Shown: positions 7,621-55,045 of the stretch, one piece after another
How positions within the stretch are numbered: position 1 is the first letter of the stretch
Layout of the letters: each line of letters begins with the position of its first letter
From: Bryum argenteum
Lineage: Eukaryota > Streptophyta > Bryopsida > Bryales > Bryaceae
Direction of reading: 5' to 3'
Length of the DNA stretch: 64,000 bases
NCBI GenBank assembly: GCA_037043015.1
Contig: CM073321.1
Coordinates: 12,656,001-12,720,000, forward strand
Translations under genes and position numbers: made by a program
Notes under the pieces: model-generated
What the model saw: the letters and a program-made list of their open reading frames with translations, nothing else
What the model was told of the DNA's origin: nothing
Databases searched by the model: none

Positions 7621-7626
7621 AAGATC

Positions 7627-14460: not shown

Positions 14461-14867
14461 CAAGCTAAATACATGTTATCATTTTTAATAACATAAATCA
14501 ATCGACAAAAGTATTAGATGGAAAGAACAAACCTACACTATAATATATTATAGAAAAATAATAAATGATACATTATAATATATTCATAAATGCGTACAAT
14601 GTACTTTTGATTTCAAATGAAACCCAATACTACAAAAAAGTGTTGCTTGAAGCAAGCTAAGTACCTTGAAAAACTCCATACCCTATCAATACTACCAAAA
14701 TCCCAAACCACACATCCTTGTACATCATTTGGTCTAACATATCTTCTATACTTTTAAATGACTATAATCTTTTGAATTTGAAACAAAAGATTAATATTTC
14801 TAAGTCGTAAGACAAAGCCATGACTATGTAGTTGTTACAATACACAAATTTAATACATAAAATACCT

Positions 14868-17698
14868 TCAAGCATTTGAAAATTCAACTATTGTATCGTA
14901 AATGACTTTAATCTGATCCACCGGAATTTTTAAAGTACACTCCGTTGTATCCTTCTTAACTTTTGACTTCCATAAAGTCATCAATGAAGCTGTATTCTTC
15001 CACAAAGGAGGTTGAGTATCGTCAACCTTCCAACGCAATCCTTTGTCCAAATCCCATCCATTGTAGGTCTCTTGCACATCTCGATCACTCGATGCAAGCT
15101 GAAAGAATTGAATAAGGATGCAATTTGGCTGCTGGGGGTTTATGTTCGGATCTGACAACGCTCGAGCATTCCACACCGGTCGTGAGTCACCATCAGCACG
15201 CCGAATAGCAACAAAGTATCCTTCATAAACATCACGAGCTACACGAAAAGATGGTTGAGGGCAATCTCGGATCCCTCCAAAATAGGCCTCATCCTCTCCA
15301 AACTCCTCACGAAGTTCGCCATCTTTAGCAAACTGGTCCTTCAAAGTCGCATCTATTCTCGATAATGGCCAAAATCCGTCCCGAAGAACATTTGATGGTT
15401 CAATGGGAACCTCTAATGCTGCCTTCACAGCGCACCAATAGAACACAAGATGTTCATAGCGTCTTCTATACTGTCTAGTTCTATCTTCATCAGACATTGC
15501 CTCCCAGTACTTGATAAATCTAGATATGCCCTTCACAATGTCCTCCACACCCCTCATTGCACAATGCGTCGTAGGAGTCGGATCACCACGTGGCCACAAA
15601 CAACGACCTTCCGAGTCCTCTCTCCACAACTTAATTCCGGTTGTATCATTTGGCAACCAATCTTCTGCTGTGCACGAAACCTTGTACTTCATCACGGGAC
15701 AACCTGTCGAATCCAAAAAAAACTTGAATTGTTGTGCCTTTGTATGACTAGAAAGTGCTTCTCCTCCATCCCTAATAAACCCATCGATAAATCCTTTAAA
15801 ATCCGGCACCTCTTCAACAAGGTGGGGGATGGCTGGAATAAGTTCGACGTCCATGAATGATTTCATGAGTAACGGTATAGTGGGGAAATTGTCTTTCCTC
15901 AATAACATGCTCCACCTCCCAAACATTGCATCGATGTCATCATGAGTATGCCCAACCAACATGAAATTGACGTATACCTCCCGGGAGATCTTCTTTGCGA
16001 CAAGGAGAGACCAAAAACAGAAGACATATCTATTCTTGTTGTCACCTGCTGCATTGTCCATCTGAACATTGAGAATTGGCAGAAGAGGAATTCCTCAAAG
16101 TGGAAGAGCTGGTGCTGGACGGAGTGATGATACGCACCTTGGAGAACAGCATCAAAGATAGGTGCCGACCTCGACCCCACAAAAAGCTCCCTCGCAGAGT
16201 ACTTTGGTGGCAATTCTATATCTCGGAGCAGCTTAGCAAAAGAGCCCATCGTGTAATTTGAATCGTGTGCAAAAATATCTAGACCGTAATACGCGTAGCG
16301 TACACCTCCGTGGCCATGAGCGATCATTACTGTGACGAATACAGGTAGCTTCATCAAACCATCGAGCTCTTTACCCTTGTGAGAAAAGACAGGGGAAGCG
16401 GTCTTCGAATGATCCATTTTATCATGCATAATGGTCAAACACTCATGCGGGTAGGTTTTTGACCTATACTTGTTTGCATGATATAACTCCCGATGAGCAC
16501 GGGCTGCAGCCAAGTGTACCTCGAGCTTCTTTGCCCAAAGTAGCGCTTGTTGCGACCCAAAAATAGAGCCACGACGGAGTGTGTGCAACCGATCACATTT
16601 GGAGCACTGAGCAAAGTTATTCCCGGGTTTCCGGGCATCAAATTCAGGAAAGTGTAACTCTCGAATTCTACTAAGAGAAGATGGCAAGACCATCTTCAAA
16701 CAGATGCCTTCATTTGCGGCGTTGATCTCCGGAATGGCACTCTTCCTTTTCCACGGAGCGGGAAGAATCATCGATACAACCTTCTCTCCAGATTTCAATG
16801 TCCTCGTTCGGTGGGGCATGTGATCCGCAGAGTTCTCCAGGATGCAACGCAGGGTTGCAGTTGCATGCGACGTATGCTTGCGCGGCTTAAGCAAAGACGA
16901 ATTTCCATGGGGATGCGCCATGACGCCATCAGCCACGTATGTTTGAAACCGATGGAAGGTTGCCTTGGACACTCCAGCAATATATCTCCATGCAGGCAAG
17001 CAAACATCGATTCCCTCAACCGTGACCACTCTCTTTCCGTCAGCATTCTGATGAACCCGCCTGTGAATGTCAAGCTTCATGTGAAACCTGAATTGGTAGG
17101 ACGTTTGACTATACATACGCTCTTGGAAACATCGGATCTTCTCCCTCGGGAAGGGCTGAACGCTGTTCTTGGTGCAGCAAACTTTGCTTGGGACAGAATT
17201 GATAGACTTCCGAGTTAATAATCCTTTGGATTTGACGGATGTTTCACGAGGCGAGTTCCGAATTGTATTGTTGTAACGTCCGCTACGAGATCATTGAGGT
17301 CTTGCAAGAAGTGCAACACGAGAGTCATGATCGTGTCTTATCTCATGGTCTTTGATACTAGCCCCATTATAGAAGACTTTATCGAACGGCCAGGCCCTGA
17401 CTGATTATCTCCACTCATCAAGCACCACTGTGGCATCAAGGGTCTTTGAGATCTGAACTGCGACTTGGGAGTGCCCAAGTGGACCGCTGCTACCGAGAAC
17501 AAGATTGTAACTGATGCTGTGACATAGGCCCTCCGCTACATGCTGACCGTTGTCACCGTAAAGGGTAACGAACTTAGTTGCCCAAAGACGCCGGGGGATA
17601 CCTTCATAGTTTGGAACGTTTTCCAGCTCCTCCGGTTGCACCACAAGATCCTCATTAGAGGAGTAATCACCAAGCATTTGAACATCTAGAGCAGCCAT
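14868..17698 (-). pseudogene. Transposase-like gene, copy A (DUF7869-type)
   Basis: The gene reads on the minus strand from ATG at 17,698 to the stop at 14,868. In order it has an N-terminal part (WATKFVTLYGDNG), a PFPREKI segment, a region with DHMPHRTRTLKSGEKVVS, a CSKCDRLHTLRRG zinc-binding-like motif, IMHDKMDHSKTASPVFSH, then NVQMDNAAGDNKNR, then VGHTHDDIDAMFGRWS, and a C-terminal part ending near WKVDDTQPPLWK. The three acidic motifs (HDKMD, QMDN, HDDID) fit an RNase H-fold DDE/DDD transposase. From memory the GHTHxDxD signature belongs to DUF7869 proteins. Damage: stops and an unclear frame between 17,402 and 17,290 and a one-base frameshift near 16,093 (both parts otherwise long and open). 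Family A palindromes start 59 bp upstream. Copy B at 30.0-33.6 kb aligns along its length. The enzymatic role is inferred. Confidence 0.65.
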
Positions 17699-17756
17699 GG
17701 TTGAGATTGAAAAATTATCACAAACAATAGGTTAGAAACAAAAGATTCGGTTGCGG

Positions 17757-18817
17757 TTCAACTCGAGTCGAGTTGAATATTGTAATGACTGAACCTCCCT
17801 AGTCTTATATATCCGCTAATTCGATCCAGGAATCAGAAATAAAAGGAAATAATTATGAAGAAGAAAAGATGTATGAATAGATTCAACTCGCTTTGAGTTG
17901 AAATTCCTGGAATAGTAATCCTAAGATATTCAAAACAGTCATTATCGTAGAATCTTGTACTCAAGATACTTAATGCGTTTTAAGTGGCTTGAGCGTCTCT
18001 ATGAGTTAAGAAGAACCCATAAATTAACACCAATCAAAAACATATATATGCGGTATATTGTATACGAGTTTATTTACACTGAACAGTGTCCTTAAGTTGC
18101 TTCTAGGTCGAAAATATATTTTTGAATTTAACTCGAGTCGAGTTGAATATCCACAAATGTTTAAGGCGACTTCATTGGACGGTTGAGTATATCTCTATTT
18201 ATGTGAGATTTCTAATTTAACTCAAATCGAGTTAAATATTACTGGGGTTATCAAAATATCACGTGGCGCAGCCGGAAATCCGCTCCGTAAATTTCAACTC
18301 GACTCGAGTTGAATACTAGATTTCGGAGAGAGATTATCTTCTCACAGATAAACCAGAGGACTCGATGATGTCCAATTCAACTCGAATCGAGTTGAATATT
18401 ATCACCCAGGGATAGAGCATTCTTGATTATGTGAATAATATTGATACTTAACGAATATATCTCCAATTATGTGATAAATCATATTTAACTCAATTCGAGT
18501 TAAATATTATGGGACTGATGACAATATCAGGTGTTCCTAACGAATATCGACATAGTGAATTTCAACTCGACTCAAGTTGAAATTCCACTCCAATACAAAG
18601 AGCATCCCCTTCTTAATAATCCAACTGAAACTAGAGGATTTTATATTTCAACTCGACTTGAGTTGAATACCAACACCCATGGATATATCATTCCTAATTC
18701 TGTCACAATATCTTATACTTGAAGAGATACAATTTAACTCGATTCGAGTTGAAATCGTACAGTTGTAAGTTTACATCTATACTACGGAGATATAATTTCA
18801 ACTCGACTTGAGTTGAA
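17757..18817. repeat. Palindrome array A1, 11 copies
   Basis: Eleven copies of a 21-23 bp palindrome (arm TTCAACTCGA or TTTAACTCGA, one central base, reverse complement) start at 17,757, 17,882, 18,126, 18,215, 18,291, 18,375, 18,482, 18,559, 18,645, 18,731 and 18,794. Typical spacing is 76-107 bp. A higher-order repeat of about 267 bp is also visible: 18,183 onward resembles 18,449 onward, and 18,411 resembles 18,680. The array sits immediately 5' of transposase A. A role as protein-binding sites is inferred. Confidence 0.9.
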
Positions 18818-18991
18818 CTCGTTCACTAAGGACCAGAATGCTTAAACATTCTCCCGGAAATATTGGCAGTATTTACAGACCTCAAAACCAACTAACACTC
18901 AATAATATACAGTGACGTATAAGGTGCGACGTGGACCACCTCTAGTGAATGAGCACATATTCCACGACATCATCCCCACAGACACAAAAAA

Positions 18992-19014
18992 GTTATCCGC
19001 GACCCGTGGATAAC
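18992..19014. repeat. Solitary palindrome of family C type
   Basis: A 23-bp near-perfect palindrome with arms GTTATCC-x-CG and its complement lies just beyond array A1. It resembles the family C palindromes at 53.7 and 61-63 kb (arm GTTATCCCCGG) and not family A. Confidence 0.6.
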
Positions 19015-21830
19015 GTGCATCCTATTAATAGTAAGTGTTGAAACACTGAGGAATTGTGCCTTGCACTCAATTTGCGAACCACGCTCACCTGCGATTTGCA
19101 GATTTCAAAAGGAAAAGTAGGGCTCGCAACTAAAGAAACCACGCACAACAATCAGTAGCTAATACAGGAGTCGAAAAATACATGACGGACAACTGTCATA
19201 ACCTGAAACAGAATCAAAATAATACATCATGCGCCTTTTCCACAACACTAAAACCTCTAAATGAGAAACTACATCGGACGCAGTCAGCACCAACTCAAAC
19301 TCCGTCTACACAAACACGCAATCTTGAACACACACACCGGAACAGAATATCAAACTAAGCGCACCTTGAGAGCACGGACGAGAGTGAGAGAAAATGAAAG
19401 GAAAGGTTGAGAGGCTGACTAGCCTGACCCCAGCCCAACCTCAACGGCTACATTGTGAGAGTATCCTCAACGCCCAATATCGTGCAAAAAGCCGACGCAT
19501 TTTGTCACAACATGAACTTTGTCTTCATTAGGCTCCGAAATAGGATTCCACTGTTTAAAACGGGATTTTGAAAATATTAGGCGGCAAAGATGTTTCGGCA
19601 GGAAACTAATTTTGGAGGGAAACCCATTCCTAAATATAGATTTTTTATATTTCACAAACAATTGTGTCTTAAATTTTTCTCCATAAAATTAAATATTTCA
19701 GACATAACTATGACTTGTATTCATATATTTATTGAATAAAATATAATAATTAAAAAATTAGAGTAAATAGTGTAATTGAGAACATTCCATTGACAAATCT
19801 TTACTTAATTAGGCACAATCAATAGAATCAAATATGTAGTACACTAGTTTAAAAAATTACCTTAAAAAAACAAAGAATACTTATAGAATAAAAATAGCAC
19901 AATTAAATGGGCATATGAATAAATATATATATATATATATATATATTATGTTAAATACATAATATTACAATTCAAGTATAATTGTTGTTGATATAAATTT
20001 GAATACAAATTAAGCATTTATTGTGCTATCTTAATATAGAATGACAAACGCGCAATTACATGCCCATGAGAGTACAAATAAATATAGGAATAAATAAACA
20101 ACTAAATAATATATATGTATATATAGATATATATATATATATACGAGTAAAAATGTATATGAATACATAAATAAGTACGTATATATATACATAGATACTA
20201 GTACAGAATTTAACTTCATAGAATCTTAGTTCAATTATATTCGATAATAACATAAATTTGATTATATATTGAGCATTTATTGTGCTATCTTATTATAGAA
20301 TAAGGAAAGCGCAACTATATGCACATACGAGTTCAAATATGTAAACATATATAAAGATAAATAAATAAATATACGTATATAGAGATTTATTGGTTTGTAG
20401 CCAATAATCTACTTCTATAACATAATACTATTGGACGATCTTTTGGTATGTATGATATATGGCTATGGTATGAATGATGTATGGCGATGATATTTGATGT
20501 ATGGTGATGATATGTGTGATGTATGGCGATGATATGTGTGATGTACGGCCATGGTATGTGTGATGCATGTCTATAGTACAGATGATGTTTCTCAAAGATA
20601 TCTTCTATCTATATACTCTCACTGTCTTATTTATATTGTCCAATACGTTCTCTCAAACCTTCCTACCCACTTATGTATCTATCCAATAATATTATTAATA
20701 TGTAGCCAATAATATCATTAAAAAAAATTTTATGTTGTAATAATATTAATATAATACTCATAATTTGATGATGATTTAATGTAATAGGAATAATATAGTA
20801 GTTATAGTATTAGTACAATACAAGCCAAATTAAATTTGCAAAAAAGTTATTCTAATTATAGTAACTAGGTCCAAGGGTTTAGAACAAAAATTGGTATCAA
20901 TAGAACAAACAAGTGATATCATAGACAGTGGTGGACGTAATATTAGAGTGATTTTTCATCTTCAGATAATCGTACGATGTAATTGATGTTTCCCATTGTG
21001 GGAGGCCATGTCTAGACGTATCCATTTTAGCAATGGTGAATTTACTAGTATATATATTGTCACGGATATAGATTAGAAACTTCTAGAAGATGGAGAAGCA
21101 TCTCGGAGAGTCTCATAAGGCCCTTGAGAAGTCTCGGAAGTCGCTTGAGAAGTCTCAGAAGAAGCTTCCTATCTGGTAGTATATATAGGAGGCAACATAA
21201 ATAAATAAAAAGCAAGAGGAAAATAAACATGCACACATAAAAATAATAAGCCTCATAATCTTTAAAAATTTGGTAGATAGGAGATACGTTTTTAGCTTCA
21301 GAAGCATAAAAACATAAAATGTCAATAAAGCAAGAATAACAAACCAAAAACAAAAAAAAAAAAAAACCAACAAAATAAACACGCACAGATAAAAATAATG
21401 AGCATGACAACATCTTAGAAACTGGTGGAGAGGGGATAATTTTTTAGCTTCCTTCTCGAGTCAACGATGACCTTATTGGTTTAGAGAACGTTAACTAATG
21501 GGAAGTGGGATATGAGCATTATCAATGTTGAATTAGTGCTTGGGTGTTGACAATTAAATGATGTATTTTTTTTCGAGTTTGTATTTTATTTCAACATATA
21601 ACTACACACAACTTTTTAATAATCAAAACATGGTATTTCCGGTGACACGTTTTATCCAATACTACACGTACTATTGTAAAGTGTTGTGGAGTCTAAATTT
21701 TTACGATACAATACATATAGTGTTAGAATAGGCATTTACTGAACTAATCTTCTTTTCAAAAAAATAAACTAGAAAAAACAGTTAGAAATTAGTGAAAAAT
21801 TGTATGGAATTTAGTGCAGTGTAGAGACGG
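19015..21830. other. Gene-free A+T-rich spacer with simple repeats
   Basis: No coding region is supported. It holds a TA microsatellite at about 19,921-19,947, a diverged duplication built on GCATTTATTGTGCTATCTTA (20,014 and 20,272), TA-rich tracts near 20,110-20,190, and a duplicated AATAAACAYGCACASATAAAAATAATRAGC phrase (about 21,225 and 21,376, roughly 150 bp apart). Confidence 0.6.
20441..20590 (+). repeat. Minisatellite, about 22-24 bp unit
   Basis: About six imperfect units of the type GATATGTGTGATGTATGGC repeat head to tail. Confidence 0.75.
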
Positions 21831-21989
21831 GCAGACATGAAAAGGGCAAGAAATTGCAAGCCCAGGCAATATACGGCGGGGGCAGCGTGAAAGGCGGCCC
21901 GGGTAGGCAGGGGCAGTGCAAAAGGTGGCCCGGGCAAGAGTACGGGCTACCCGCTCGAATTATGGCCGGGAACGGAGAGTGGGGGGCTA

Positions 21990-22411
21990 GGGTTTGGCCC
22001 CCACTGTAATCCTCGTCTTCCTCGCTTTTGCGCTTCGCTTGCTGAATTTGTCTGTCGGCATTCTTGCATTCTTGCATTAGTTGGTGTTTTCTTGCATTTT
22101 CGCTATCGCTACGTTCTCGCCTCGACAGTCGCTAGCTTCTAGCCTCGAAAGTAGCTATCTCCTGGCCTCAAAGGTTGTGTTTGTTCATGTTTATATAGTC
22201 TCTTTTGTTATCTACTCGCTCTTTTTGCTCTGCTTCTTGCTTCTTGCTCTGCTCCCCGACGCTTTTTGCTTCTCTTAGCTCTGCGCCTCGACTCTGTTAG
22301 CTTAGTGTCTGCTTTTCGATATATTCGCGGCATCAAGTGGGTGGCTCGTTTCGACAGCGCTTTTGCAGCTTTGGCAGCGCTCACCGAAGTTCCTGGACTT
22401 CACAATCTTCT
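21990..22411 (+). promoter_or_regulatory. Possible 5' leader of methyltransferase-like gene A
   Basis: A G+C-richer stretch around 21,840-22,010 is followed by CT-rich sequence full of CTTGC and CTCG words and then by TCTCTGTAAGTT near 22,407, a good splice donor. A further candidate exon at about 22,987-23,060 ends with AAATGG/GTGAGT. I infer promoter and non-coding first exon of the plus-strand gene that follows, because plant genes commonly have a CT-rich leader. No transcript evidence exists here. Confidence 0.3.
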
Positions 22412-23247
22412 CTGTAAGTTAACTGCCAATGTTTGTAACTTTTGGTTTGCAATTTCAGTCTGTGGTGTTTGCAATTTTTGGTCATTTCTGTCACTTTTCC
22501 AGACTTCGGGAGTTGAATTTTACTAGCTTTTAGGATCCTTGAAATTTGAGTGACTACATTGGGAAAGATAAGGAGGAAGTTTGAGTGTAGATCTAGGAAA
22601 GGAGAGGAAACTGGCCTATTGGAGCTGGTTCATAAAATTTCTGAACCCTACTTTTTAAGAGCAGATCGAGAATTTGAATGTTGAAACAAAAAGGGTGGAT
22701 GTATTTGAGCTCTTTAGGGTTGGTTCGAGGCAGTTCGCAAACCTGTTCAATTGCCAATTGGTGTAAGTTGTCAATGAGGTTGTACTCAGTGATTTTAGAT
22801 AATTAGAATGCTTATGTTCACTTCCCGATCATCGGTTTGTAAATTAATTGCAATTGAATCGGTCTACTATGTGATTCTTGCATACTTGAATCTGCGTTAC
22901 TGTTGAGAATTTCGTTATGAATCAGTCATTGTAAATTTTCTTGTTCTAATTATTTATTGTTTACAATCATTCATTGTTTGCTTCAGGATTAGGACAAAGA
23001 TGAGGCTTGTCCAATTAATTTTGGTATCTACAGTTTAGAAGGGAAGCAGACAACGAAATGGGTGAGTATTCAGTACTTAAATCTCGATGTAACTAAGTTG
23101 TAGCTGAATAGTTTGGCATTGGATTTTTGTGTTTGCTTGTTCTTCAAAATACTAGTTTTGTACATACTTAGCGTAGAAAATAGTTCAGCTCGATTCAGCT
23201 ATAGCCGAGTTGTGTTGATGCTCGAAAGATTCAATAAAAATCAGCAG

Positions 23248-24221
23248 TTCAACTCGACCGGAGTTGAATTGGAAACACATTTTATTACCTGTGCATACCA
23301 CCGCCATTATAGACTACAGTCAAATTCAACTCGGGCCAAGTTGAATTCTCCATTCAATTTGTTTCTAAGAGTTAAAACAAAAGTTCACAGACCGGAGAGA
23401 ATTCAACTTGACCCGAGTTGAATCTTTGACCTAGAATCCTTTTAACGGTCAATGACAAATTAGGCTTCAACAATTCAACTCGATTCGAGTTGAATCAAGA
23501 AAATACGAGATATAAGGGTGCTGCTATGCTTCCGCTATGCTATTCACTCGCCGCAGCCCGAACAATTTAACTCGACTCGAGTTAAATTGATAAATTACTA
23601 GCTATAATCTCAATAAACATATTCAACTCGATACGAGTTGAATCAGAGATGTGCATGTGAGAAACTAGACAATTATTCAACTCGACTTGAGTTGAATCGA
23701 TAAATTACTAGAAATGGTATCGTGGTACATATTCAACTCGATTTGAGTTGAATAACGGTAGCGCATGTGAAAGTAAATAAATAATCCAACTCGACCCGAG
23801 TTGAAATAGAAAATTTCTGTGCAGTTTTCCGAGCAGTTGAAGAAGCACCATAATATTCAACTCGAGTCGATTTGAATTATTTAAGCATAGAAATTACTAA
23901 ATGCAGACAGGGTATCCATAGGGTTGAAAAATGACACGACAAACACAAAAGGAGTACAATCCTCTGACTAAATAAGACAGGAACATGGGTCTATACAATC
24001 AACTCGATTCAAGTTTAAATTAAGAAGATTTATCTTTAAGATGAATTCAACTTGACTCGAGTTGAAAGTATTTAAGCATTGTATGTGGAGATCACAAAAC
24101 TCCTCGAAGGATGCATTCAACTCGAATCAAGTTGAATTGAACTTCCTTGGACAGTTGCTAACAATATTTGTAATCTAATAGAGACAGATAGAATGCTATT
24201 TCAACTCGACTCGAGTTAAAT
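23248..24221. repeat. Palindrome array A2, about 14 copies
   Basis: Copies of the family A palindrome begin near 23,248, 23,324, 23,401, 23,473, 23,563, 23,621, 23,675, 23,731, 23,784, 23,855, 23,998, 24,044, 24,115 and 24,198, with a more degraded one near 23,181. Spacing is mostly 46-90 bp, tighter than in array A1. The array ends about 58 bp before the acceptor TCTCATCAG that opens the first long exon of methyltransferase-like gene A, so it seems to fill an intron. Confidence 0.9.
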
Positions 24222-24278
24222 ACTAATCCTTGCAATATATATGGATAAATACTCATTTGGCCCCTCTGTCTCATCAGG

Positions 24279-24773
24279 AGAAACCAATCCAAAGGAGAGG
24301 CTCTCAACATTCTTCAAGCCCTATGTTCCTGACGGCGACAGCGAAGTCGCAGACCCAGAAATATTTGGCAACATGTAGGTGCACGCAGAGCCTACGGATG
24401 TCGAATGGTGGAGTATGCTCCTCACACTGTACACGGACAAGCTGGCTGTCGTCACCAAGTACAGGGGAGCAGAGTGCAACCTTCCCGTCAATTTGGAGGA
24501 GAACATCATCGATGTTGTCGTCTACAACACGCACTGGATCTGCGTGACGTGCATCGTGGACGACCCCAATCAAGACACGGCTCTGGACCAAGACTACGGG
24601 TCCACTTACATGATCGACACGATGAAGATCCGTTTCGACATTTGGGCTCATGTCGAGAGTATAAGACAGTCTCAGTACGAACCCTTGGCGAAGAATGTTG
24701 AGCAGCACATTCGGGTGATGGTCTGGTTGGGGTACCCAAAAAGGTTGTCCCATGAACAATTGCACTCTATGCT
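24279..24773 (+). pseudogene. N-terminal exon of gene A, unrecognised fold
   Basis: After the acceptor TCTCATCAG the frame reads through VPDGDSEVADPEIFGNM, a TAG stop at 24,376, then VEWWSMLLTLYTDK, YNTHWICVTCIVDD and VMVWLGYPKRLSHEQL. It looks strongly like coding DNA: no other stop for about 400 bp and higher G+C than its flanks. The HW...D pattern is weakly reminiscent of Ulp1-type cysteine proteases, but no catalytic Cys context is seen, so I leave it unassigned. Confidence 0.5.
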
Positions 24774-26348
24774 GGTGTGTCAAACATATCCATTTTTAAA
24801 CTATAATACAATAAGACTTCATTAGATGTGGTTTTAGTTGTCTATACTTACAATGTATCAAGAAAAAAAATTAAAAATTAAAAAAAATATTTTGAAGTAA
24901 TTTTATTTGATTTTTTAGTTGAAAAAGTAAGTCATGTCCCAATAACCTAAAATCCATAGAACCAAGCAAATGGAATATCAACCATTTTTATTTTAATATA
25001 ATTTTTGAATATGACATACATCTTCTTGTATAGAATACAAAATAATTTATTTAATTATAAAAAAATTAATTCATTGTGCACTATAATGCCTGCAAATCCC
25101 CAAATTCAGCACTTTTTCCCTCATCTATGAATGGATCCAAAAAAAATAAAAAATCTAAGAGAAAATCTATAGGCATATATACTTTGATTTCAGTGAGGTG
25201 CATGATATTTTATTTTCTATTTTAGGGTCTTTTTACTTGATTAAAATGAATAAATTAGACAAACTTTGGAGGCTTTCAATAATAATAACCTAATTAGTGT
25301 GTCCAAAAAGTGATACCCCAAGCTTACCATTGCCCATTCGCGAGTTTTGATTCACAACCAATCTTGGTAACCAGCAGCCCCCAAATATTCTCGCCCCTCG
25401 TCTCTGATTGCTGGTCACTACCATGGTGAACTTCAAGGCAAAGCTGCAACGCAAGAAGATGCAAATGCAGCCCCTTCGTCTGACGCAGGAAGTAAGCATT
25501 CACAACGGCAGCCACGAGTCGATCATATATCAGACTCCTGAGACGACGAGATCATAGAGGCGCAAGGCGATTTTGTCCCAAACACAGCGGGGGCCGACAC
25601 CAAAGAAGATCAAATCAGTCATGATGAAGAAGCCGACCCTGGCCGATCCCACGAAGATTGAACAGACAAGCTTAGTGTCGGCCTTGACAGTCCTAATCGA
25701 CAGTGTAGAGAAAGTTGTAGATTACAAAGAGTCCATGAATGTCTTCAAGAACTACTCGGCTCTTTGCCAAGACTCTTACATCTTTGGCTCTCATGTCACT
25801 TACGAGATTCCAATCGAGCGTCTCTTTACCCCCCCCCTCCGCAGACCTGAACATCCGGAACCTTGAGCAGGAAAAAGTAAGGCACACAATGCATTTCCTT
25901 ATTGAGATGTGCGATAAGGAGAAGAAGAACTTCCTCTGCGTCTTCCTGAAGAATAAGCTCGTAAAACCCAAATCTTGGGAGGAAATACAGGACGAGGAGT
26001 TCTACATGGTCAATGGACAACAGTGTGTCGAGGTCTCCAAGCAGTTGCAAAACAGGCTAGATGTAGATGTGAAGATCAGGGACTCTTTTAAGGCATGAGA
26101 CTGCTTTGTAGTATGGAATGAAGATAAGTCCATCATTTGAAGAATCTCCGCGTTCTACAATAGGGTCAACCACTTCATGAATACAAATCCAACGTGGGCG
26201 ACAAACATCATCGTGGCGCGGGAGCTGTGGAATAGCCTCGGTAGACGGGAGAATCCAAAGGAGGCTACTGAAGGTGGCAAGACCGTCACATAGAAGGCCT
26301 TCAAGGGCAAGAAATCAGCAAAGGACGCATTCAACGTATGTGCAACTT

Positions 26349-26449
26349 CATTTAACTTGATTTGAGTTGAATGGTGTTCTACACTACTTAAGATGATATT
26401 TCGATTCCATTCCTGCTGTAACCTATTTCAACTCGACTCGAGTTAAATA
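26349..26449. repeat. Two family A palindromes inside an intron
   Basis: Both lie in the 145-bp intron 26,336-26,480 of gene A, at 26,349-26,372 and 26,425-26,449. They make up about a third of the intron. Confidence 0.85.
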
Positions 26450-27861
26450 TCTAACTCAATATCGTACTCGGTTGATATAGGAGTTTATGGAAGCTGTCAG
26501 GCTTAGATTTGCTCTCATTGACGTGAAGGGCGCCCAGAAAGCAATGACAGCAATCAAGGCAGCCATAGAAAAGCTCAACATTCAGAATGAGCTTAAAATC
26601 ATTTGTGCTCCTAATGATGTCTACAAGGTCTGGCTTGAGCTTTTCTCAGCCGCATCCCAAGGGGAGCTCACCGACCCCAACACATGAAGGAAGATGAAGG
26701 AGTTGGGGAAGTGGAAGCCTAAGCATGGAAACATCTCCAGGGAGTTCTTCAAATGGATCGGCAACACAAGTTACCCCCAGCTCAAGCGATTAGCCGAGCA
26801 TATGCTGAACAAACCGAACCCGAAACGGTCATACACATATCCCAAAGTCACATTGAAGCAGATGAAGGGTATGTTTGTAGATTTCTACAGCTCTTACGAC
26901 TGGCTGGAGCGCTGCAAGAGGAAGACCATCGTAAAGCGCGTGATTCACAGCATGCGCCCTAACTTAATGCTGTTCAGCACGAGTGGGGACTTCAGGAAGG
27001 AGAGCTCGAAGAAATTCAAGACCAATTTCAAGATAACGCCAGCTACATTGAACGTTCTGATCACGAATCCCGGGGAGTCCTTCTTCACGCTGGCAAAATT
27101 TCCCAGCAACAAGAACAAGTCCGTAGAGCAACTCTCGCCGTATGCAGCAGAGTTCTTCAGAGTTTTTCTCGCCAACAAGGGGAAGTTTCAGGTTCCAAGG
27201 GGCGAGACAAACTTCAGGGCCTACAACCTGGAGGACGATATGCTGGAGGGATTGGCACGGTGACTCTTGGAACGAATTATTTTCCAAGAGAATCAAGGTC
27301 GGAATAATGGACTTCCGTAATCTCCCGGAGCACAAATGGTATCAGCTTCATCGAGCTCGTCATGAGGCTCGTACTTTTACAACGTCCTCCAAGTCTTAAA
27401 GTCTATCACGGACCCGGTGGTTACTGAAATCCCCGTTTGGGTTTCGATCTGCTGAAGTAGGAATGCTGAGGCAAAGATCAAGAATCACCTGGATAGTTGC
27501 GAGTTCGGAAACAACTACAAGATAGAGTATGCGGAATATATTCCGGCTCCATATGAGCGACTTGAGGACCAAACCCTGTCGACCAAGAAGGCCAAGGGTC
27601 ATGTCCAAATCCTCTTCTTGTTTCGAAAATCGTAGAAGTTGAAGATTCCAAACCTCCCCAAGTTCTTCCCGGGCCCCGACACTCCACAGTTCAACATCTG
27701 CGAGAGATACAACGAACTCGAGTACCGTATCTATAATACGGTATTGAGGATGGAGTTCTACCTGAAGCTACTTGATCTCTTCTGCAAGGAAGGGGATGCG
27801 ATCCTCAGTGTTTTTGGAGGCGGGAAGCTCTACTGTGCGGCCTCGGTAAGGACATCCAATA

Positions 27862-28207
27862 TATCAACTCGATTCGAGCTGAATAGTTCGTCATGACTCT
27901 GTTGCTTTCTAAGCTCGTTGTATTTAACTGGAATCGAGTTCAGTGCCCACTTCAGTGTCCAGGGATCATTTCACACTAACTTGGATTCTATTCAACTCGA
28001 CTCGAGTTGAATGGATTATTAAGTGTGCTACAAAACCATGTAATCTCATGCGTTCTTAAATTTAACTCGACTCGAGTTGAATGTATTGATTGGTGGCGCT
28101 TAGAGTTAATATTTGGTATTCAACTCGAGTCGAGTTGAATGCGCACAATAGAGTAGTATAGTAGTGCTCTCACACGCCAGCTCCGTTTCAACTTGATTTG
28201 AGTTAAA
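27862..28207. repeat. Six family A palindromes inside an intron
   Basis: Copies begin at about 27,862, 27,921, 27,989, 28,059, 28,118 and 28,186, all within the intron 27,846-28,253 of gene A. Three are perfect or nearly so (27,989, 28,059, 28,118). None falls in an adjoining exon. Confidence 0.9.
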
Positions 28208-29232
28208 CGTACAAATTATTGACGTTGTCATCCCCTGCTATGTCCACTCGCAGATGTGTTTGTTGAAGAATTACACGATCAGCTCCAGCGACGAGCACAA
28301 CGAGGCCGTCAAACTTTCGATGGAGGTTTTCAACTTGGATCGTCGAGATTTCAAAGGTGGGTACCCGTTCGTTGAGGCTTCCGTATCCAGGGAGAGACTG
28401 GAACCACCACCACCCCCCATGAAGGGCGAGAAGGGGAAGGCAAAGAGGAAAGGCAAGGCAGTAGAGTTACCACTTGACGTGAATCACCCAATATCGATAG
28501 TAATCGGGTCAAGTGACGACGATGACGATCCAAACCAAGATGTTGAGGCCTACGGATCCCAACTCCCGATAACGCCCCAAACTAGACAAGGCTCATCTTC
28601 TCATTTTCCTCATCCCCAGGAACAAGGCGTCTCCGATAGCTCTCTTCCGGCTTCCACGCCATCGCCTCAGAAGAAGAGAAGAGAGTCACTATCCGTTGAC
28701 GCTCTAATGGAAAAGCTCGTAAGAATGCAGGAGGAGGCGCAGGCGCGACAAAGGGTCGAAGTTGAAGCAGTGCTTGCTCGAGAGCGCGAGGAACGCAGAC
28801 TCCAAAGAGTGGAGGATGAGCATCGATGGAGCGTAATGATATCTAAGGCCTTCGCAAGAATACGTGGGATAGTAGTCCAAGCCATTTCGCACCTTAAGGC
28901 AAAGCCGCTCCTCTCGCTCGATCCAAGTCATAGTAAACCTCTCCTTCTGACCCACGGGGCTGCTCAGTCTTCCGACAGCGGTGCAGCTCGACATTCATCT
29001 CCTCAACGTTCCCTCCAAAGCATGCCGTTTGAGTCGACTGCAGCTCCAGCACCTGTCGGCAACATTGATCAAGATAATTGTAGGGATCAAGGCCCATCAA
29101 GTCGCTCCATACCCTCGGACCCAGTCGATTTCGAAAGGAAGGCCGTGGATGAGGAAGAGCAGATAGGGACACAGGATGAGACCCTTGATCGGAACGTTAC
29201 GGAATCAGGTTGAACTCCATGATGTAGTCTTT

Positions 29233-29256
29233 CATTTAACTCGACTCGAGTTGAAC
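29233..29256. repeat. Family A palindrome just after the gene A stop codon
   Basis: A near-perfect copy lies about 20 bp past the TGA at 29,211-29,213. It is the last family A copy in the window and may mark the right side of element A. Confidence 0.85.
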
Positions 29257-29926
29257 TAATCCTTCAATGAATGGAAGATCGCCTATAGAAGCCTTCGGAA
29301 GTTGTTGTTGGCCTAGTATATACATTCCCCTAGGACAATTTTGTTAGATTGGACTTAGTGTTCATCGTGTAAATACTTTTTGTATATGACTCTCATTTTT
29401 GAGCGCAGAGTTTGGAATACAATCATATTTTCTTACACAATTTCTCCCTCTGATTTCTACGCAAGCTCCATTGATTTGCAAAGTGTTCCAAATTTATGTT
29501 TGTCTCATGAGGTCCCCCCTATAGAAGACAAACACGTAATTCATTATAATGGTAATATTCAAACTCTCAAAATATAATCGACCTAAATTCCAACATATGT
29601 ATCGAGCTAAAAGCGCGTGTTGTAGAGCTAAAGTGAATACAAAAGATGATGAAAGTAGCAAACACAACATGCATTTCGACAGCAATTTGCAAAAAGAGCA
29701 CAATAAAACGATAAACTCAATTAAATTGGGAATCGACAATCAACGCCGAAAAATACAAACACTTGAATCGTTGACCTTTTAGGCACAATGACTGTATCAA
29801 TACTTAACTACGGATATCAGTTGCTAGCAAAGATAAGAGATAGGACTTCTACGTGCATTTCTAAGATGATTCTATTGGCAAAAAGTCACGACACAATAAA
29901 TTGATAGCTCAAATTGCACTGAGGTC

Positions 29927-29949
29927 ATTTAGCTCGACTACAGCTAAAT
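29927..29949. repeat. Solitary family B palindrome, 3' of transposase B
   Basis: A slightly degraded copy of the arm ATTTAGCTCGA and its complement lies about 32 bp past the stop codon of transposase B. With the array at 32.3-33.4 kb it brackets the body of the gene. Confidence 0.8.
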
Positions 29950-29980
29950 TGGAATACCCAAATAAACTAGGGATGTCAGG

Positions 29981-32900
29981 CTACTCCTCTCTACCGTCGA
30001 ACCGCTCAATACTTTGTTTGATGGTGTCGATTTGACGCTCCGATAATGAAATAATCGGACGCCGAGAGCCAAGTTTTGCACTTGATTTCCATGACGTAAA
30101 AATAGCATCAGCATGAAGCCATTCCGGAATGTGAGTGTCTTCAACTGTCCATTTGAAGGTCTTTGAATGTAGTCTTTGATATAACCCTTGAAGTCAGGTA
30201 TTTCCTCTATTAAATGAGGAATAACCGGCAAAGACTCTGCGTCCAATCCGTCCATAAATGACTTCATCAACTGAGTAAGTGTGAGAAAGTCATTCTCTTT
30301 CAGATTCATGCTCCAACGTCCAAAGAGGGCGTCAATATCTTTGTGGGTATGTCCAACTAACAAAAAATTGACATGTACTTCACGGAACACACCCATGTGT
30401 ACCAGAAGAGACCAAAAGCGAGACATAAATCTATTCTTGTTGTCAGAATTTGCGTTGTCTAGTTGCACATGCAGGACAGGGGGTACAGGCTCCGCCACCT
30501 AAGAAACTTTACGTTCAGGAAGAAGAGAGTTTAAACACCCTTCTTTTCCAAACAGTACAGCTTCAAAAAAAAGGCAGCGACCCTGAATTTGTGAATAATG
30601 ATTTCGAATACGAGATCAAAACACCTTCTAGATCTTGTAAAAGCTTTAATATTGATACAACAGTGTGATTGCAATCACTTGGATAAATATCGTGCCCATA
30701 AGGAGCATACCGGACATCGCTACGCCCATGCCTATTCATGCCAGTCACAGCAATTGGAAGCTTCATCAATGCATCATTTGCCTTTGTTTTATGTGAAAAT
30801 ACAGGGCACGCAGTCTTTGCATGATCCATTTTGTCATGTATTATACAAAGTTCATCTCTCGGCCTCTGAATAGAAAGAGAATGATTTGAGTAATAATACT
30901 CACGATGCGTTTCTTGATAATGCAAATGCTCCTCTAGCTTCTTGATCCACATATTCTCTTCACATGAATCAGGTACCATTGACTTGATCATTGTCTCCAT
31001 CCTGTCACAGGTTGAGAAACGAGCAAAGTTGCCCCCTAGCGCCTTTTTCGAATACTCCGAAAATTTTGACCTCCTAATCCTGCTAAGTGTGCTCTAAGAA
31101 ATGGACTTCAAGCCCAACCTCTCATTGATGTCATTAATCCCAGGTATGGCATCCTTCCATCTGCAGGACAACGGCAAGGACCGAGACACAACCTTCTCAC
31201 CAGATGTCAACATCTTCGTCCTGTGAGGCATATGATCAGCAGCATTGTCAATAAATGTCTTCAGAGTAGCTACAGCTTGCTTAACATGCAATCGTGGTTT
31301 CTTCTGTCCAACATTGCCATGGTGGCGAGCACGTAGCCCAGCTGTAGCTTCTCCCTTTTTCCTGTAAAATGTTGAAATCGGAACTCCACTTATATGTTGC
31401 CATGCACGCGCGCAAACGTCGATGCCTTCAGTGGTTACCATCATCGTGCCGTCTGGTGCCTGATGAAAAACAATTATGAACATCTATCTTGAAATGTGAC
31501 TTAAATTTAAAACCCGACGCCTCGTACATCTGCTTTCGGAGAGCCATAATTTTCTCTCGAGGGAAAAGTTGGCAACAATTCTTGATGCAACAAATCTTGC
31601 TTGCAACCAAGTTGACTGAATCTAACGTCAGGAGCTCCTCTTCTCTTTTGGTCCTTAAGAATCCTGAGTTTTGTTGTCCCAACTCATACGGTCGCACCCC
31701 CTTTCTCTTTGGATGATCTCTGGCATAAACAATGAAGTTAAATTGATCAACTCGTAAATGATCAAGCAGTGACCAACCCTCATGGATAGCATGGCTAAGC
31801 TTCCAACTCCTAGTTCCACATATGGTTTCAGCTGGTACGAAGTCGAAATTCAAGCACTTCTCGATCTGCACAACTACTTGATCTTCACATACGGGCTCGT
31901 CATTACACTGTAACATTCTATCAACATCCAGAGTCTGACTAATGCCTTCACCAACAACATCCCCTCTATCGTTGAGAAGTGTCACAAATTTCGTAACCCA
32001 TTTGCTTCTGGGCAGTCCGGGGCAATCTTTTAAATGGTCCGGAAGAACAAGCTTGGAAGGAACATCCAAGTCCTATAAAATTACAAACAAAGACGAATAA
32101 GTACAAATGGTTAAACTCAAGACAAAAATATATTGAGCAAAATTAGTAAATCCACTACCTCAGAAAAAGATGCTGAAAATCACCGTCGCCATCAGATTCA
32201 CTCAATTCCATGATTACTTGAATGCCAGCAATAAACACACAACCATGAGAAATCACTGGTAAATTGATATACCTGCAATCAGAAATGTGCATGACCATTA
32301 AGGAAATTGTATTACTATTTCGCTCGAGTCGAGCTAAATCGGCAGCAAGTTATTTGTTCATCAAGCTAGCCTCGAAGCAGTTGCATGTCAATGACTATGT
32401 AGCTCAACTCGAGCTAAATGGTCATCTAGCTACAAATACCTCGGGGTTTGATGATGAACAAAACTCTTGATGCCCATTTAGCTCGACTCGAGCTAAATGG
32501 TCATCAAGATTTTTGTTTATTACGCTAACCTCGAAGCATTTCTAAACAAAAGACCATTTAGCTCGAGTCGAGCTAAATGGTCATCCAGCTACAAATGCCT
32601 TGGAGTTGATCGGTGAACAAATATCTTGAAGACCATTTAGCTCAAGTCGAGCTAAATAGTCTTCAAGATATTTGTTCATCACACTCACCTCGAAGCTGTT
32701 GCATCTGGATGACCATTTAGCTCGAGTTGAGCTAAATGGTCTTCTTTTTAGAAATGCTACGGGTGTGTTGGTGAACACTTATTTCGATAACCATTTAGCT
32801 CGACTCGAGCTAAATGGGCATCAAAATAACTGTTCACCAACAAGCCCCGAAGCAAATGTATCTAGATGACCATTTAGCTCGACTCGAGCTGAATGGTCTC

Positions 32901-33565
32901 CCTTTAACATATGCTTTGAGGTGAGCGTGATGAACAGCTTGATGCCCATTTAGCTCGAGTTGAGCTAAATGATCATCGAGATAACTGTTCACCAACAAGC
33001 CCCAAAGCAAATGTATTTGGATGACCATTTAGCTCGACTCGAGCTAAATGGTCTTTCTTTTACAAAAGCTTCGGGGTTTGTTTATGAACAGTTTTCTTGA
33101 AGACCATTTAGCTCGACTCGAGCTAAATGGGCATCAAGAAAGCAGTTCGTCACGCTCACCCCGAAACATGTGAAAAAAGAAGACCATTTAGCTCGAGTCG
33201 AGCCAAATGATCCTCCAACAATCATCCCCCAAGAAAACTCAAATAATTCTTAGGTGGATTACCATTTAGCTCGAGTCGAGCTAAATGGTCTTACGATGAA
33301 TCATTCAAGTACTCCAACTCGTGAACTCGAAGCATTTGGATGTGGATGCCCATTTAGCTCAACTTGAGCTAAATGAGCCTGACCATATTGCATGCATTCG
33401 AGATAAGAAACTGCCTTGATATTCGTGCACAGTTATTTCTGAGAATGATTCTTGGGAACCGTGCACAAGTAAAATAGTATATTTGCCTCGATTTCCGTGT
33501 ACACCAACTCCGACGAAATCCACTTTGCCATCAGGAATGCACCACGATGAAGCCAACATATGACG
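29981..33565 (-). pseudogene. Transposase-like gene, copy B, internally deleted
   Basis: It reads on the minus strand and aligns with copy A throughout. Shared landmarks are WVTKFVTLLNDRGD, LFPREKI, DHMPHRTKMLTSGEKVVS, IIHDKMDHAKTACPVFSH, HVQLDNANSDNKNR and VGHTHKDIDALFGRWS. Near 30,157 the text jumps from IPDFKGYIKDY to FKWTVEDTHIPEW, which matches the extreme C-terminus of copy A, so roughly 280 residues are missing. It ends at TAG 29,981. Other damage: a frame change at an A8 run near 30,570, a TAG near 30,500, and breaks near 31,100 and 31,450. An upstream exon at about 32,157-32,274 follows TGATTGCAG and a candidate first exon lies at about 33,380-33,562. The palindrome array would then sit in an intron. 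Probably a non-autonomous remnant. Confidence 0.6.
32317..33378. repeat. Palindrome array B, 14 copies at about 79 bp
   Basis: Copies with core arm CATTTAGCTCGA, one central base, and reverse complement start at about 32,317, 32,397, 32,475, 32,554, 32,632, 32,711, 32,790, 32,869, 32,944, 33,023, 33,102, 33,181, 33,260 and 33,349. Most intervals are 78-80 bp. Many are extended to about 31 bp as GACCATTTAGCTCGA and complement. The intervening sequences are related, and successive ones are inverted: a spacer with CTCGGGGTTTGATGATGAAC is followed by one with its approximate complement (GTTTATTACGCTAACCTCGA). The true unit is therefore about 158 bp of alternating orientation. Confidence 0.95.
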
Positions 33566-33750
33566 AATCAACAACAAATTCTTGTTACACATTGAAATTG
33601 AGGTTATTGATCGAACTCACCCTCACGCCGTGCTCGACAGCTGCAATAATTTAACGAAGGCCCTTCGCATCCTCAAAAGCAGCGCGCGCATCAACTCCAG
33701 AGCTACGAAGAGTCCCAAACCCTAATCAGAATTTACTAAACCGGAAGCAC

Positions 33751-33852
33751 AAATGGAGTATAGGAGAAATGGAGTATAGGAGAAATGGAGTATAGGAGAA
33801 ATGGAGTATAGTATAGCACAAATGGAGTATAGGAGAAATGGAGTATAGTGAG
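33751..33852 (+). repeat. 16-bp minisatellite
   Basis: The unit GGAGTATAGGAGAAAT repeats about six times, with one variant carrying GTATAGCACAA. Long open frames on the minus strand here are produced by the repeat and are not genes. Confidence 0.9.
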
Positions 33853-34060
33853 ACGAAGGGCAGAGGTGCGGAGGTGCGGAGGTGAGGCCAAGAGCAAATG
33901 TGTGAAAGTACGAAGGTGCGGAGGAGCGGAGGAGCGGAGCAGTAGAGGACCGGAGGAGCGGGATAGTGCGCAACGAGAAAGAAGAGCGAGCAACACCAAG
34001 CGGGAAGAGAAATGGCGCCATAAAAGAGCACGAATTGGGCAGAGAAAGGGCGCCAAAAAA
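33848..34060. other. Purine-rich tract, possible 5' flank of copy B
   Basis: A GA-rich stretch full of GCGGAGG words follows the minisatellite. It lies upstream of the candidate first exon of transposase B on the minus strand, where it would be a CT-rich leader or promoter. That role is inferred from position. Confidence 0.25.
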
Positions 34061-34107
34061 GGCCACTAACGGTCAGAGAATTTTGAGTAAAAGTGATGTG
34101 GTTGGGA

Positions 34108-34190
34108 ACTTCGGGAGGAACAGGGAACTTCGCGAGGAACGGGGACATCTTGGGAACTTCGGGAGGAACGGGGACATCTTGGGGGAGTAA
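34108..34190 (+). repeat. About 28-bp tandem repeat
   Basis: GGGAACTTCGGGAGGAACGG followed by GGACATCTT repeats about three times with small changes. Confidence 0.8.
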
Positions 34191-37100
34191 AAATCATTTG
34201 AAGTTAAGTCACCGAGAAATCCGGAATATTTCTAAAAATAGAAATTACATAATTGTAATAAAAAAACCGGATTCGTGAGGAAAATGGATAACCCAAACTC
34301 AAATTAACAAAATAATCACATATTGGGCACTAGAATGTTAACCCCTAAATGCGCCGAATGTCGAAAAACGACATTTTGGATGGAAGGCAGAACTTTGAAT
34401 AGCCATATCTTCTTCATCCGAGGTCCGTTTTGGATGAAATCACTTGGGTTATGCTCCAAATCAAGTCTAGTTTGTATTGTAAAATTTGCAATAAAGTATG
34501 AATTAATGGAATGCACTTTAGTGAAGACAGCTCTTCTATTTTATTGAAACTCCAAGCATGGGGCATGTATTATCATTTCAAGCCAATTATGTGAAATTAA
34601 AAATAGTTTTTCATGATTTACTTTTTCATGGTCATGATCTTAAGGTGATTCTTAACAACTTTGCAGTAAGAAGTTTTCTGATCATAATGATTTTGCTATT
34701 CGATTTGCAATGATGTTTGGTCAACATAAACGTGACAAAATGGATGATATTTCAGGAGCTATATCTCCTTCATTCACCATTGGATTTCAACTTAATTTTT
34801 TGGGATGGCCTATAATTAAAGTCTAGTCTAAGTGATAGAAACCTTAACTAGATCTAAGATGTTTTAAAGATAAGGCATGAAATTTAATGCAAAGGATCTA
34901 GTTTTTGACTATTTTTCCTTTGTCAAATTTACGGTAGCTTTTACTAAGGCATTCATTTACATGGCTTTTATTTGAACCAAGAATTTGGAGAAACTAATTT
35001 TTGTGGCGAGTTAATGTATGGCGAGTTAATGTATTATTAGTAAAGAAATTAGTCAAGTTTACATCAAACCATAAAACCGTAATGAAAAACTCTAAACCCT
35101 AGACCATAACTAACTTACCTTTTGATATTTTAAAACCGATAACTTTAATAATAAAACTTTTACCATTGCTGCAATTATTTTTTACCACAATTCATCCGAC
35201 TACACAAAGAACAAAAGAAACTTCTAGTTGTTAAAGAGATAATGTCATTTGTTATTTGAACCTTTACAAGATTACCTTAATTACAGTATACTGAGAAAAA
35301 CATGAAAATATTTAATTACATGAAACTTATACTTAATAAATGTACAGAGGTAAAACAAATTGTTCTCGTCGTGTACCTTGGATTGATGTAGTCTTGACTA
35401 ATTCAATTTAATTTTATACTAAATTAAGTACGCAGAACTTCGAAGAGTTTTATAGAGCTGTGATAGAGTATGAAATGGAGAGTAGAATTATAGAGTAATT
35501 ATGTGAATCTATTTGCTTTACTTCCATATTTCAATCCTAACAATTGTTAGGTTTATTTTAGTGAATTAGCATGTAAAATGGACGACACTATTATCTAACA
35601 TTTGCTAAGCCGTTATGCCTAGCGTTTATGCTCAATTTATCAAAATCAACAGGTGATGTGAAGTATTGTAAGATTTGTATTTACTAAAACACGTATTATT
35701 AAAAGATTAATACTTTGTACATTAAAACAGTTATAGTAAATAAAATATTGAATTTATTTAAATGTCATTCTATAAGATTAGTTTCTACTTAAGTAGGTGT
35801 GGTATTTTAAGTATGATATTCAATTATGTTGGATGTGGTATTCTAGAAATGGATATTATAAACATAATATTCAATATATTTATGTGAAATACTATTTTAT
35901 AAGTATTTAGATAGTGAATAAGTTGAGGAATTATAAGTTTATTACTTACTTTTTTCAAGTGTGATATTTCCATATATGATATTTAAAGTATAATATTATT
36001 GGTTTAGAATTAAGTCTTGTTAACATTTAGTGAGTAAATATATTTTACAGGTTTAGTATTCTATGTGTGATATTCACACATAATAATATTTTGTTTTACT
36101 TCAATTCTTATGCTAAGATGAATTTTATATTATGGTATTCTAAACCTATTTTCAAAAATTTAGAATGTATCCGCATTTAAGGTGATGGTCCTATATGGGT
36201 TCCCATCCGTAGTCTCTCCACTCAAAAGGAGGTGCCCCTCTCAATTCCACACACATTTTTAACATCCTAGAGTTGTGTTTTGAGAAATGAAGTTTGCGAA
36301 TCTCGTGGACATATTCATGAACTACTCCAATAATTTGACCTCACCCAATTCGCAACATATTAGAGTGTCCGGACTAGTCCTTTATCCAAAAAACAGGACA
36401 TGTCTCACATGCACGAAAATAGTGAAAAGGACAAATCCGGACTATCAAATTGTATTATATTTTCCTTAAAATTTCTACATCGGTCCATATTTAAGTAATT
36501 TACAAGGTTTTTGAGATGTTACATACAATTGCATTCTAGGTAGTCCACCATGTTCCAAAGAAATTTGATTTGGGGTTAATTTGAAAAAAGTACATAGAGA
36601 GTGGCAAAAGTGTTCATTTGGAGATTGGACTTTGGGGAATCTGAAGCACATGAACATGGATGTTTGGTCAAAATTCAGAAATTCTTCATGTAATAGTTTA
36701 TGCAAGAAATGTATGCAAATCTGTCCTGCCAGGAAAGTTCAAGGAACGGACTCAAGTCACATGTTTGGAGGCTGTCAATGAAGGTGGTAATGTCCAATGC
36801 AAGTAGCGATGTGTCCAGATAGAAGTGGCTGAGGGGCATGTACTTGACATGGGAAGAAGTTGAAGCGCTCCCACCAAGCGGCATTGAGCATGTTCGTCAA
36901 TGATGGTGACCGTGTACCATGGAGTCATCAAGTGTGCGACAGATCTCATGGCATTTTTGAAGTTCCCCCCTGAACCACGGGCGGGAGATTTTTCTAGAGG
37001 GCTGCAAAAACAGATGAGTCTCCCCCCCTAAGTTTCATTGAGTGGTACTTCAAGCCGTCCGATTGCTTGAAATAGGGCGGCTGTAAACAGAGCATCCAAA

Positions 37101-55014: not shown

Positions 55015-55045
55015 TGCATTTGTGGCATTGAGGACAGATTGATAG

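Follow-up and report, generated by a model that had tools for sequence, protein, structure and literature searches.

Palindrome families in the window

Does the family of palindromes that surrounds a transposase-like gene change along with the gene? The question is raised by a 64,000-nucleotide stretch of the moss Bryum argenteum (assembly GCA_037043015.1, contig CM073321.1; C1:12656001-12720000, hereafter the window), in which two copies of such a gene, here called T, lie among two families of palindromes. In the genome (258.8 Mb in 25 contigs), the link between palindrome class and transposon family is real and repeatable. A SAM_LFY domain of LEAFY type, a plant family, is present (E = 1.1e-28; found in 0 of 14 control genomes) and indicates that the host is a plant. 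The letters A, B, C, D, E, and M denote a palindrome class and the element family that carries it.

A preliminary description of the window had held that T copies A and B are homologous, that each is accompanied by palindromes with an arm of its own (TTCAACTCGA and TTTAGCTCGA, respectively), and that the two territories do not mix. All three points hold. Both copies contain DUF7869 (Pfam PF25273; E = 1.5e-32 and 2.5e-30 in pieces of copies A and B), and they are 48% identical in the N-terminal part and, in the C-terminal part, 62% identical over 106 aligned residues of copy B. Arm A has 28 exact matches in the window versus 0.20 expected, all at 17757-29255, and arm B has 21 versus 0.22 expected, all at 29602-33285; the left end of element B, at 29531, divides the two territories. 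A de novo palindrome search of the window recovered both families, each palindrome being 21 bp long around a single central base. The picture of two arrays beside two genes stands, except that class A arrays occur at several places rather than in a single block. The earlier inventory, right about families A and B, overlooked a third class with TTATCCCCGG-type arms (class E), at 61258, 62722, and 62881. With up to 4 mismatches allowed, the window has 34 A, 15 B, and 5 class E sites, the fifth of the latter being isolated near 53689.

Palindrome classes across the genome

The genome contains at least five related classes, which are all 21 bp long and keep an outermost TT and, at arm positions 8-9, a CG. 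Exact genome counts are 875 for A (TTCAACTCGA), 5878 for the B core (TTTAGCTCGA), 127 for D (TTATCGTCGN), and 693 for E (TTATCCCCGG; read first from the third element of the window and then counted genome-wide), while all reversed controls gave 0. The 21-bp B core is common to T clades B and C, which are separated by the outer bases alone (CCATTTAGC.. versus CAGTTTAGC..); these outer bases subdivide the core into CCATTTAGCTCGA (1221 exact copies) and CAGTTTAGCTCGA (1323 exact copies). Because clades B and C share this core, a strict rule of one motif for one clade is rejected for the 21-bp core.

DUF7869 genes also form a second clade. One of its copies, L030, is 19-23% identical to other T genes in the N-terminal part and has a different, unrelated palindrome array (AGAGGGTGAGCACATGCTCACCCTCT; period of ~55 bp, core GGGTGAGCACATGCTCACCC) upstream of T, at 4780-5150. 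That core has 5 exact genome copies at two places, each within ~6 kb of a DUF7869 match (C3:4170051 and C3:25951542). The second of these places is C3:25946221-25947389.

Co-variation of palindrome class and transposase clade

A DUF7869 profile search of the genome yielded at least 151 matches (150 of 1810 first-look candidates were scored). When the T tree was compared with the palindrome class found nearby, the genes of A, B, C, D, and E each grouped together: A (96), C (100), A+C (95), D (99), E (100), D+E (94), and B (98). By our count, three changes of core class explain this tree, the minimum for four classes, with the B core common to B and C. The root, a long branch, is uncertain.

The sites themselves are mostly arranged in clusters of a single class. 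On C1:0-2.363 Mb, the range over which our five listings overlap, 174 exact sites (B and C being counted only with their outer bases) form 27 clusters, 21 of them multi-site; 26 of the 27, and 20 of the 21, hold one class only. The only mixed cluster is made up of element C203, whose end is at 220197, and a D group beginning at 226470 and accompanied by a D-class T (223490). In 10,000 shuffles of the labels of these sites, the fewest mixed clusters obtained was 14.

Gene by gene, all five A-class T genes below 8.6 Mb of C1 lie within 9 kb of an A site and none lies within 37 kb of a D site, and 8 of 10 D-class T genes below 15.74 Mb have a D site within 10 kb. Two T genes that are 51-53% identical to D (one is the gene of L041) lie 0.2 and 2 kb from E sites; two others (46% and 51%) are near no listed class. 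Three T genes of 56-58% identity are more than 100 kb from any A, D, or E site, and an unclassified DUF7869 match at 8470337 lies 11 kb from an A site. B-class gene 2, the second gene of these elements, stands beside B sites in 5/5 cases, two of which are elements already in hand.

Predictions were also borne out. Two stretches beside E arrays, for which no gene had been listed before, both encode T. Six T stretches were taken without neighboring exact palindromes, and the expected clade was found in all six (two B, two C, and two D); four of these were the T genes listed on C1:0-2.36 Mb minus one known A-class gene, and two were chosen for their nearness to D sites. The proposal that class tracks gene clade is thus upheld by both sets of predictions and by the single-class clusters, with the reservation that the B core is common to clades B and C.

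Ends and copies of the elements

Elements A, B, and C are large DNA transposons with terminal inverted repeats (TIRs), 16.8-21.5 kb long. By comparing copies, we read both ends of five: A8158 (16,813 bp), A8478 (17,011 bp), B1215 (19,015 bp), B507 (21,503 bp), and C203 (18,572 bp). TIRs, starting with AAC(A/C)C or AATAC, are present in all five, as are matching 4-bp target duplications (TACA, TTAA, TACA, CTTG, and CTAT). The two A copies, at 97% identity, differ in their target duplications, which suggests separate, fairly recent insertions. Single-end or cut copies are A8568, C1303, C810, C375, and both window copies (A and B).

Most A-class T copies among the matches listed are on C1: 62 of 71 at ≥77% identity, excluding that of the window (102 of 1845 candidates scored), on a contig that makes up 17% of the genome. 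A sex chromosome or local hopping could lie behind this excess.

In the window (Table 1), element A is truncated to 15.5 kb (14005-29530), and a search of the window for its continuation past element B found none. The third element runs from 52049 to beyond 64000 and is represented by its right part only; it is more diverged and holds a NIF gene, a gene 2 exon, and class E palindromes. Its T gene should lie beyond the window. Other repeats, at 2108-4474, 6703-7686, and 9817-10141, recur at 67-80% identity in the flanks or interiors of the stretches compared.

Table 1. Features of the window, in window coordinates
Feature	Position	Strand	Basis or remark
Left TIR, element A, AACACAATATTCATTAATTTGAGAG	14005-14034	+	Start as in A elements at C1:8157776 and 8477874, whose far ends are its inverted repeat
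T copy A (DUF7869)	14868-17644	-	ORFs 14868-16094 and 15899-17290, PF25273; tblastn with copy B extends the 5' part to 17644
Class A palindrome array 1	17757-18817	.	Immediately upstream of T copy A
Class A palindrome array 2	23247-24219	.	Upstream of gene 2
Gene 2 remnant, element A	~24300-27880	+	Two main exons; limits approximate, from alignment to A8158; insert at ~24713-25335
Class A palindromes at gene 2 intron place	26350-26446	.	Homologous intron GT..AG in A8478, B507, C1303, and M1050
Class A array	27862-28206	.	Downstream of gene 2 exon 2
Single class A site	29234-29254	.	Before missing gene 3 of element A
Left TIR, element B, AACACGTAATTCATTATAATGG	29531-29560	+	A homology stops at 29531
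Surviving left part, element B	29531-36179	+	Aligned pieces reach 36179, at ~81-92% identity to B1215 and B507
T copy B (DUF7869)	29944-32072	-	Decayed, several frames
Class B array, ~79-bp period	32317-33372	.	Upstream of T copy B
TIR-like end, third element	52049-52072	+	2 mismatches to family pattern
Gene 3, third element, NIF-type phosphatase	54097-55095	-	Pfam NIF, E = 9.4e-12
Class E palindromes, TTATCCCCGG-N-CCGGGGATAA	61160-62901	.	61258, 62722, 62881, and a weaker one near 61170
Gene 2 exon, third element	63043-63768	-	20% identity to M1050 exon 2; 22-24% to A, B, C, and M

Genes of the elements

Counted from the left end, T points leftward, and gene 2, with two main exons, and gene 3 point rightward. 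T open frames reach ~980 codons and contain the conserved motifs HDKMDH, QxDN, and GHTHEDID, which probably represent a DDE/D-type core. An intron in T was considered and dropped, because the gap is in frame in L037 and L038. Gene 3 encodes a NIF-type phosphatase (Pfam E = 2.3e-15 in A, 2e-11 in C, and 9.4e-12 in the third element of the window); this NIF/FCP1-like phosphatase is carried as a passenger in all three.

Exon 1 of gene 2 contains, in most copies, a ParB-like stretch (F-x-I-I-x-G-Q-H-x-V-x-A-x-K), and the C terminus might, on our own reading, be a decayed methyltransferase. Gene 2 is less conserved between families than T: identity is 31-32% versus 49-52% for A and B and 37-41% versus 53-57% for A and C.

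Placement and form of the sites

Palindrome clusters follow a comparable order in A, B, C, and M elements: one stands upstream of T (in A, B, and C; the M stretch read does not include T), another precedes gene 2, a third lies within its intron, and one or more follow between genes 2 and 3. Both splice sites of the gene 2 intron were read in four copies (A8478, B507, C1303, and M1050); each has GT..AG at the corresponding place, and each of these introns contains a palindrome of the element's own class. Arrays have periods of 79, 53, and 35 bp in B, 46 and 33 bp in C, 54 bp in D, and 43-44 bp in E; spacers and periods vary around a 21-bp core that is kept. A single B half-site lies near the left TIR, at element position 71 of B1215 and B507 and at 29602 in the window. 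Subterminal transposase-binding repeats were considered as an identity for the palindromes and rejected, because the clusters are internal.

What might bind the palindromes

The explanation we favor, and give about an even chance, is that the noncoding DNA of each element is seeded with sites for a dimeric DNA-binding protein encoded by the element itself. Arrays of own-family palindromes would precede both T and gene 2 and would recur in the intron of gene 2 and beyond; the binding protein and its sites would evolve in step, the arrays would turn over by short tandem duplication, and the protein of each family would recognize mainly copies of its own family. Its likeliest job would be to keep the genes of the element expressed, through relief of silencing or promoter activation, as VANC does for VANDAL elements; such a role is suggested by that analogy. 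The binder would most likely be the gene 2 product, ahead of T, because sites occur not only at T but also in the intron and promoter of gene 2 itself, and because this layout is that of VANC targets. We rate gene 2 as binder at roughly one-half and T as possible at somewhat under one-third; from the sequences, gene 2 appears at least as good a candidate as T. A more specific version, which we consider unlikely, would be a system resembling parS, in which the gene 2 protein, ParB-like or possibly a ParB-methyltransferase, might load at the arrays in promoters and intron, spread over the element, and prevent its silencing, with at least five mutually exclusive specificities in one genome.

T itself might instead bind the palindromes through an N-terminal helix-turn-helix-like stretch, for autoregulation or assembly of a transposition complex. 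We regard this full account as doubtful, at about one-quarter. T clade predicts palindrome class, one palindrome array adjoins the T start, and the N-terminal region of T gives weak, nonsignificant hints of DNA binding (HTH_7, E = 0.041, residues 265-278 of L037; a PHROG profile, E = 0.17, residues 250-300 of L038); on the other hand, the clusters are internal and occur also in the gene 2 intron and between genes 2 and 3, the half-site at position 71 of B elements is all that lies beside the TIRs, no full palindrome was found in the 60 bases inspected from each TIR, and T is more conserved between families than gene 2. Sites for host transcription factors, serving as promoters or enhancers of elements that drifted between host factors, would explain positions upstream of genes and a short conserved core within diverged spacers. 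This is improbable in our estimate: the classes are element-specific, and all keep a 21-bp frame in which TT marks the edge and CG occupies arm positions 8-9, a pattern more in line with a single protein family in divergence than with several host factors.

The co-variation might also be phylogeny alone, the palindromes being functionless tandem repeats passed on by descent, as their clear short periods (53, 79, 46, 33, 54, and 43-44 bp) and the agreement of classes with the tree would allow. We think this quite improbable, since the 21-bp core is kept despite differing spacers and periods, and since separate clusters of one element, including that in the intron, are all of one class. Least probable of all, at only a few chances in a hundred, is a role of the palindromes as hairpins of RNA or DNA, such as small-RNA precursors or cruciforms. 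Perfect inverted repeats reach 31 bp in the window and 39 bp in L036; the arms, however, are one base apart, and departures from the consensus are mostly one-sided (one-sided versus two-sided, with matched double changes in parentheses: A, 136 versus 27 [20]; B, 71 versus 6 [4]; C, 93 versus 4 [0]; M, 23 versus 0; D, 24 versus 5 [3]; E, 40 versus 4 [1]), so that on balance a site for a two-fold symmetric protein fits better than a hairpin. The matched changes exceed chance in A (20 versus 2.3), B (4 versus 0.6), and D (3 versus 0.5), which speaks for hairpins and counts against a protein site; those of class A are mostly a single C>T change at position 3 of the arm (18 of 27, a nonunique count).

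Other findings also weigh against an element-encoded binder, or against gene 2 in that role. Some concern the link of genes to sites: two of the 10 D-class T genes lie more than 10 kb from any D site, a gene 2 relative (55%) has no listed site within 12 kb, and five further second-clade copies (L031-L035) have no array in the stretches read, L030 being the sixth sampled and the one with an array. The preliminary description had named two outcomes that would contradict it, palindromes scattered without a link to these genes and one clade with unrelated motifs; neither appeared when we looked for them, though among the matches listed only 8 of 18 D clusters have a D-class T within 10 kb and 10 do not. 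Others concern the choice of gene. Palindrome class follows T as closely as it follows gene 2, and among the elements read none was a recombinant that separates the two. Gene 3 diverges about as fast as gene 2 (28% identity between A and B, 42% between A and C), so the speed of divergence does not single out gene 2. Gene 2 pieces have no significant match in Pfam (best E, 0.022), NCBIfam, PHROGs, or PDB sequences; tblastn against phages with one gene 2 exon from each of two copies gave no match, and a scan of viral contigs with one gene 2 exon gave no relative. The match of gene 2 to a ParB profile is weak (hhalign probability, 16.7%; pairwise E = 0.0015; 29 columns): of 40 column shuffles, 36 fell far below the real match and 4 far above it through an artifact, and the reversed profile scored low.

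One plant genome holds at least five natural versions of apparently one protein-site pair, each with from more than 100 to several thousand site copies. Two questions become directly testable in it: how the DNA specificity of transposon-encoded proteins changes, and how an element can evade silencing while its relatives stay repressed. Should binding be confirmed, the palindromes would serve in plants as compact addresses to which proteins can be targeted.

Comparison with known transposons and silencing-relief systems

Motif arrays that co-evolve with an element-encoded DNA-binding protein are known in plants from the VANDAL elements of Arabidopsis and their anti-silencing protein VANC (PMC5735166). 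VANC binds its motifs, which lie in noncoding DNA, and clears silent marks (PMC5735166, PMC10398659); its targets lie upstream of VANA and in introns of VANB and VANC, and VANC is less conserved than the transposase (PMC5735166). The elements described here likewise have family-specific motif arrays in tandem noncoding repeats, upstream of the transposase and in accessory-gene introns, together with an accessory protein (gene 2) less conserved than the transposase, and motif and protein change together. VANC motifs, however, are 8-9 bp long, and the available text of PMC5735166 mentions no palindromes, in contrast to our 21-bp palindrome core. Binding and demethylation have been demonstrated for VANC, whereas our comparison is one of sequences. 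T is significant in Pfam only for PF25273 (DUF7869) and has no Mutator-type transposase domain, and the gene 2 pieces scanned have no significant Pfam match, unlike VANC (DUF1985). Target duplications are ~9 bp in VANDAL and other Mutator-like elements versus 4 bp in all five elements here. Since transposase type, duplication length, and DUF1985 all differ, the elements are not VANDAL.

Judged by description, the closest element is Sola1-1_Ec32 of Ectocarpus, which is 21.5 kb long and carries an accessory gene on the strand opposite the transposase (PMC12477816). The 1104-amino-acid accessory product is described as combining ParB-like and DNA methyltransferase parts and perhaps binds and modifies its own transposon; similar proteins are reported from green and red algae (PMC12477816, citing Iyer 2011 and Petroll 2025). 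Sola1 is also listed for Physcomitrella (PMC9033089). The likeness lies in size and in the accessory gene opposite the transposase, and is one of description, not of sequence. Sola elements produce 4-bp target duplications, as do ours. The ParB-like part of gene 2 is weakly supported, its methyltransferase is our own reading of the C-terminal motif, and site arrays are not mentioned in the available text of PMC12477816. That text names no sites for the accessory proteins of algal transposons; if gene 2 is the binder, our palindromes would suggest candidate target sites for these ParB-methyltransferase proteins.

Other families are less similar. EnSpm/CACTA elements have CACTA termini, 3-bp duplications, and transposase-binding motifs clustered beside their ends; here, by contrast, the termini are AAC(A/C)C or AATAC, the duplications are 4 bp, and the palindrome clusters are internal, save the half-site at position 71 of B elements. 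Kolobok and piggyBac make a TTAA-specific 4-bp target duplication (PMC9587614), whereas TTAA is found in one of the five duplications here. In bacteria VirB, an anti-silencer of the ParB family, loads at a palindrome and relieves silencing (PMC10653881), and a dimeric protein that relieves silencing from a palindrome would follow the same logic as ParB/parS and VirB. Unlike our elements, that system is bacterial; homology of gene 2 to it is putative, and such arrays do not appear in the available text of PMC10653881.

In the library searched, no publication mentions DUF7869 or the motif GHTHEDID, and searches on bryophyte transposons with subterminal palindromes, giant elements with 4-bp target duplications, and palindromes with anti-silencing found no such family in the titles and openings of abstracts listed. 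The suggestion that the window holds an undescribed plant family is therefore half right: we did not find this family in print, but its kind, in which an element-encoded protein co-evolves with motif arrays, is known from VANDAL and VANC (PMC5735166). What is possibly new is the form, with long palindromes, a different transposon, and perhaps a ParB-like binder.

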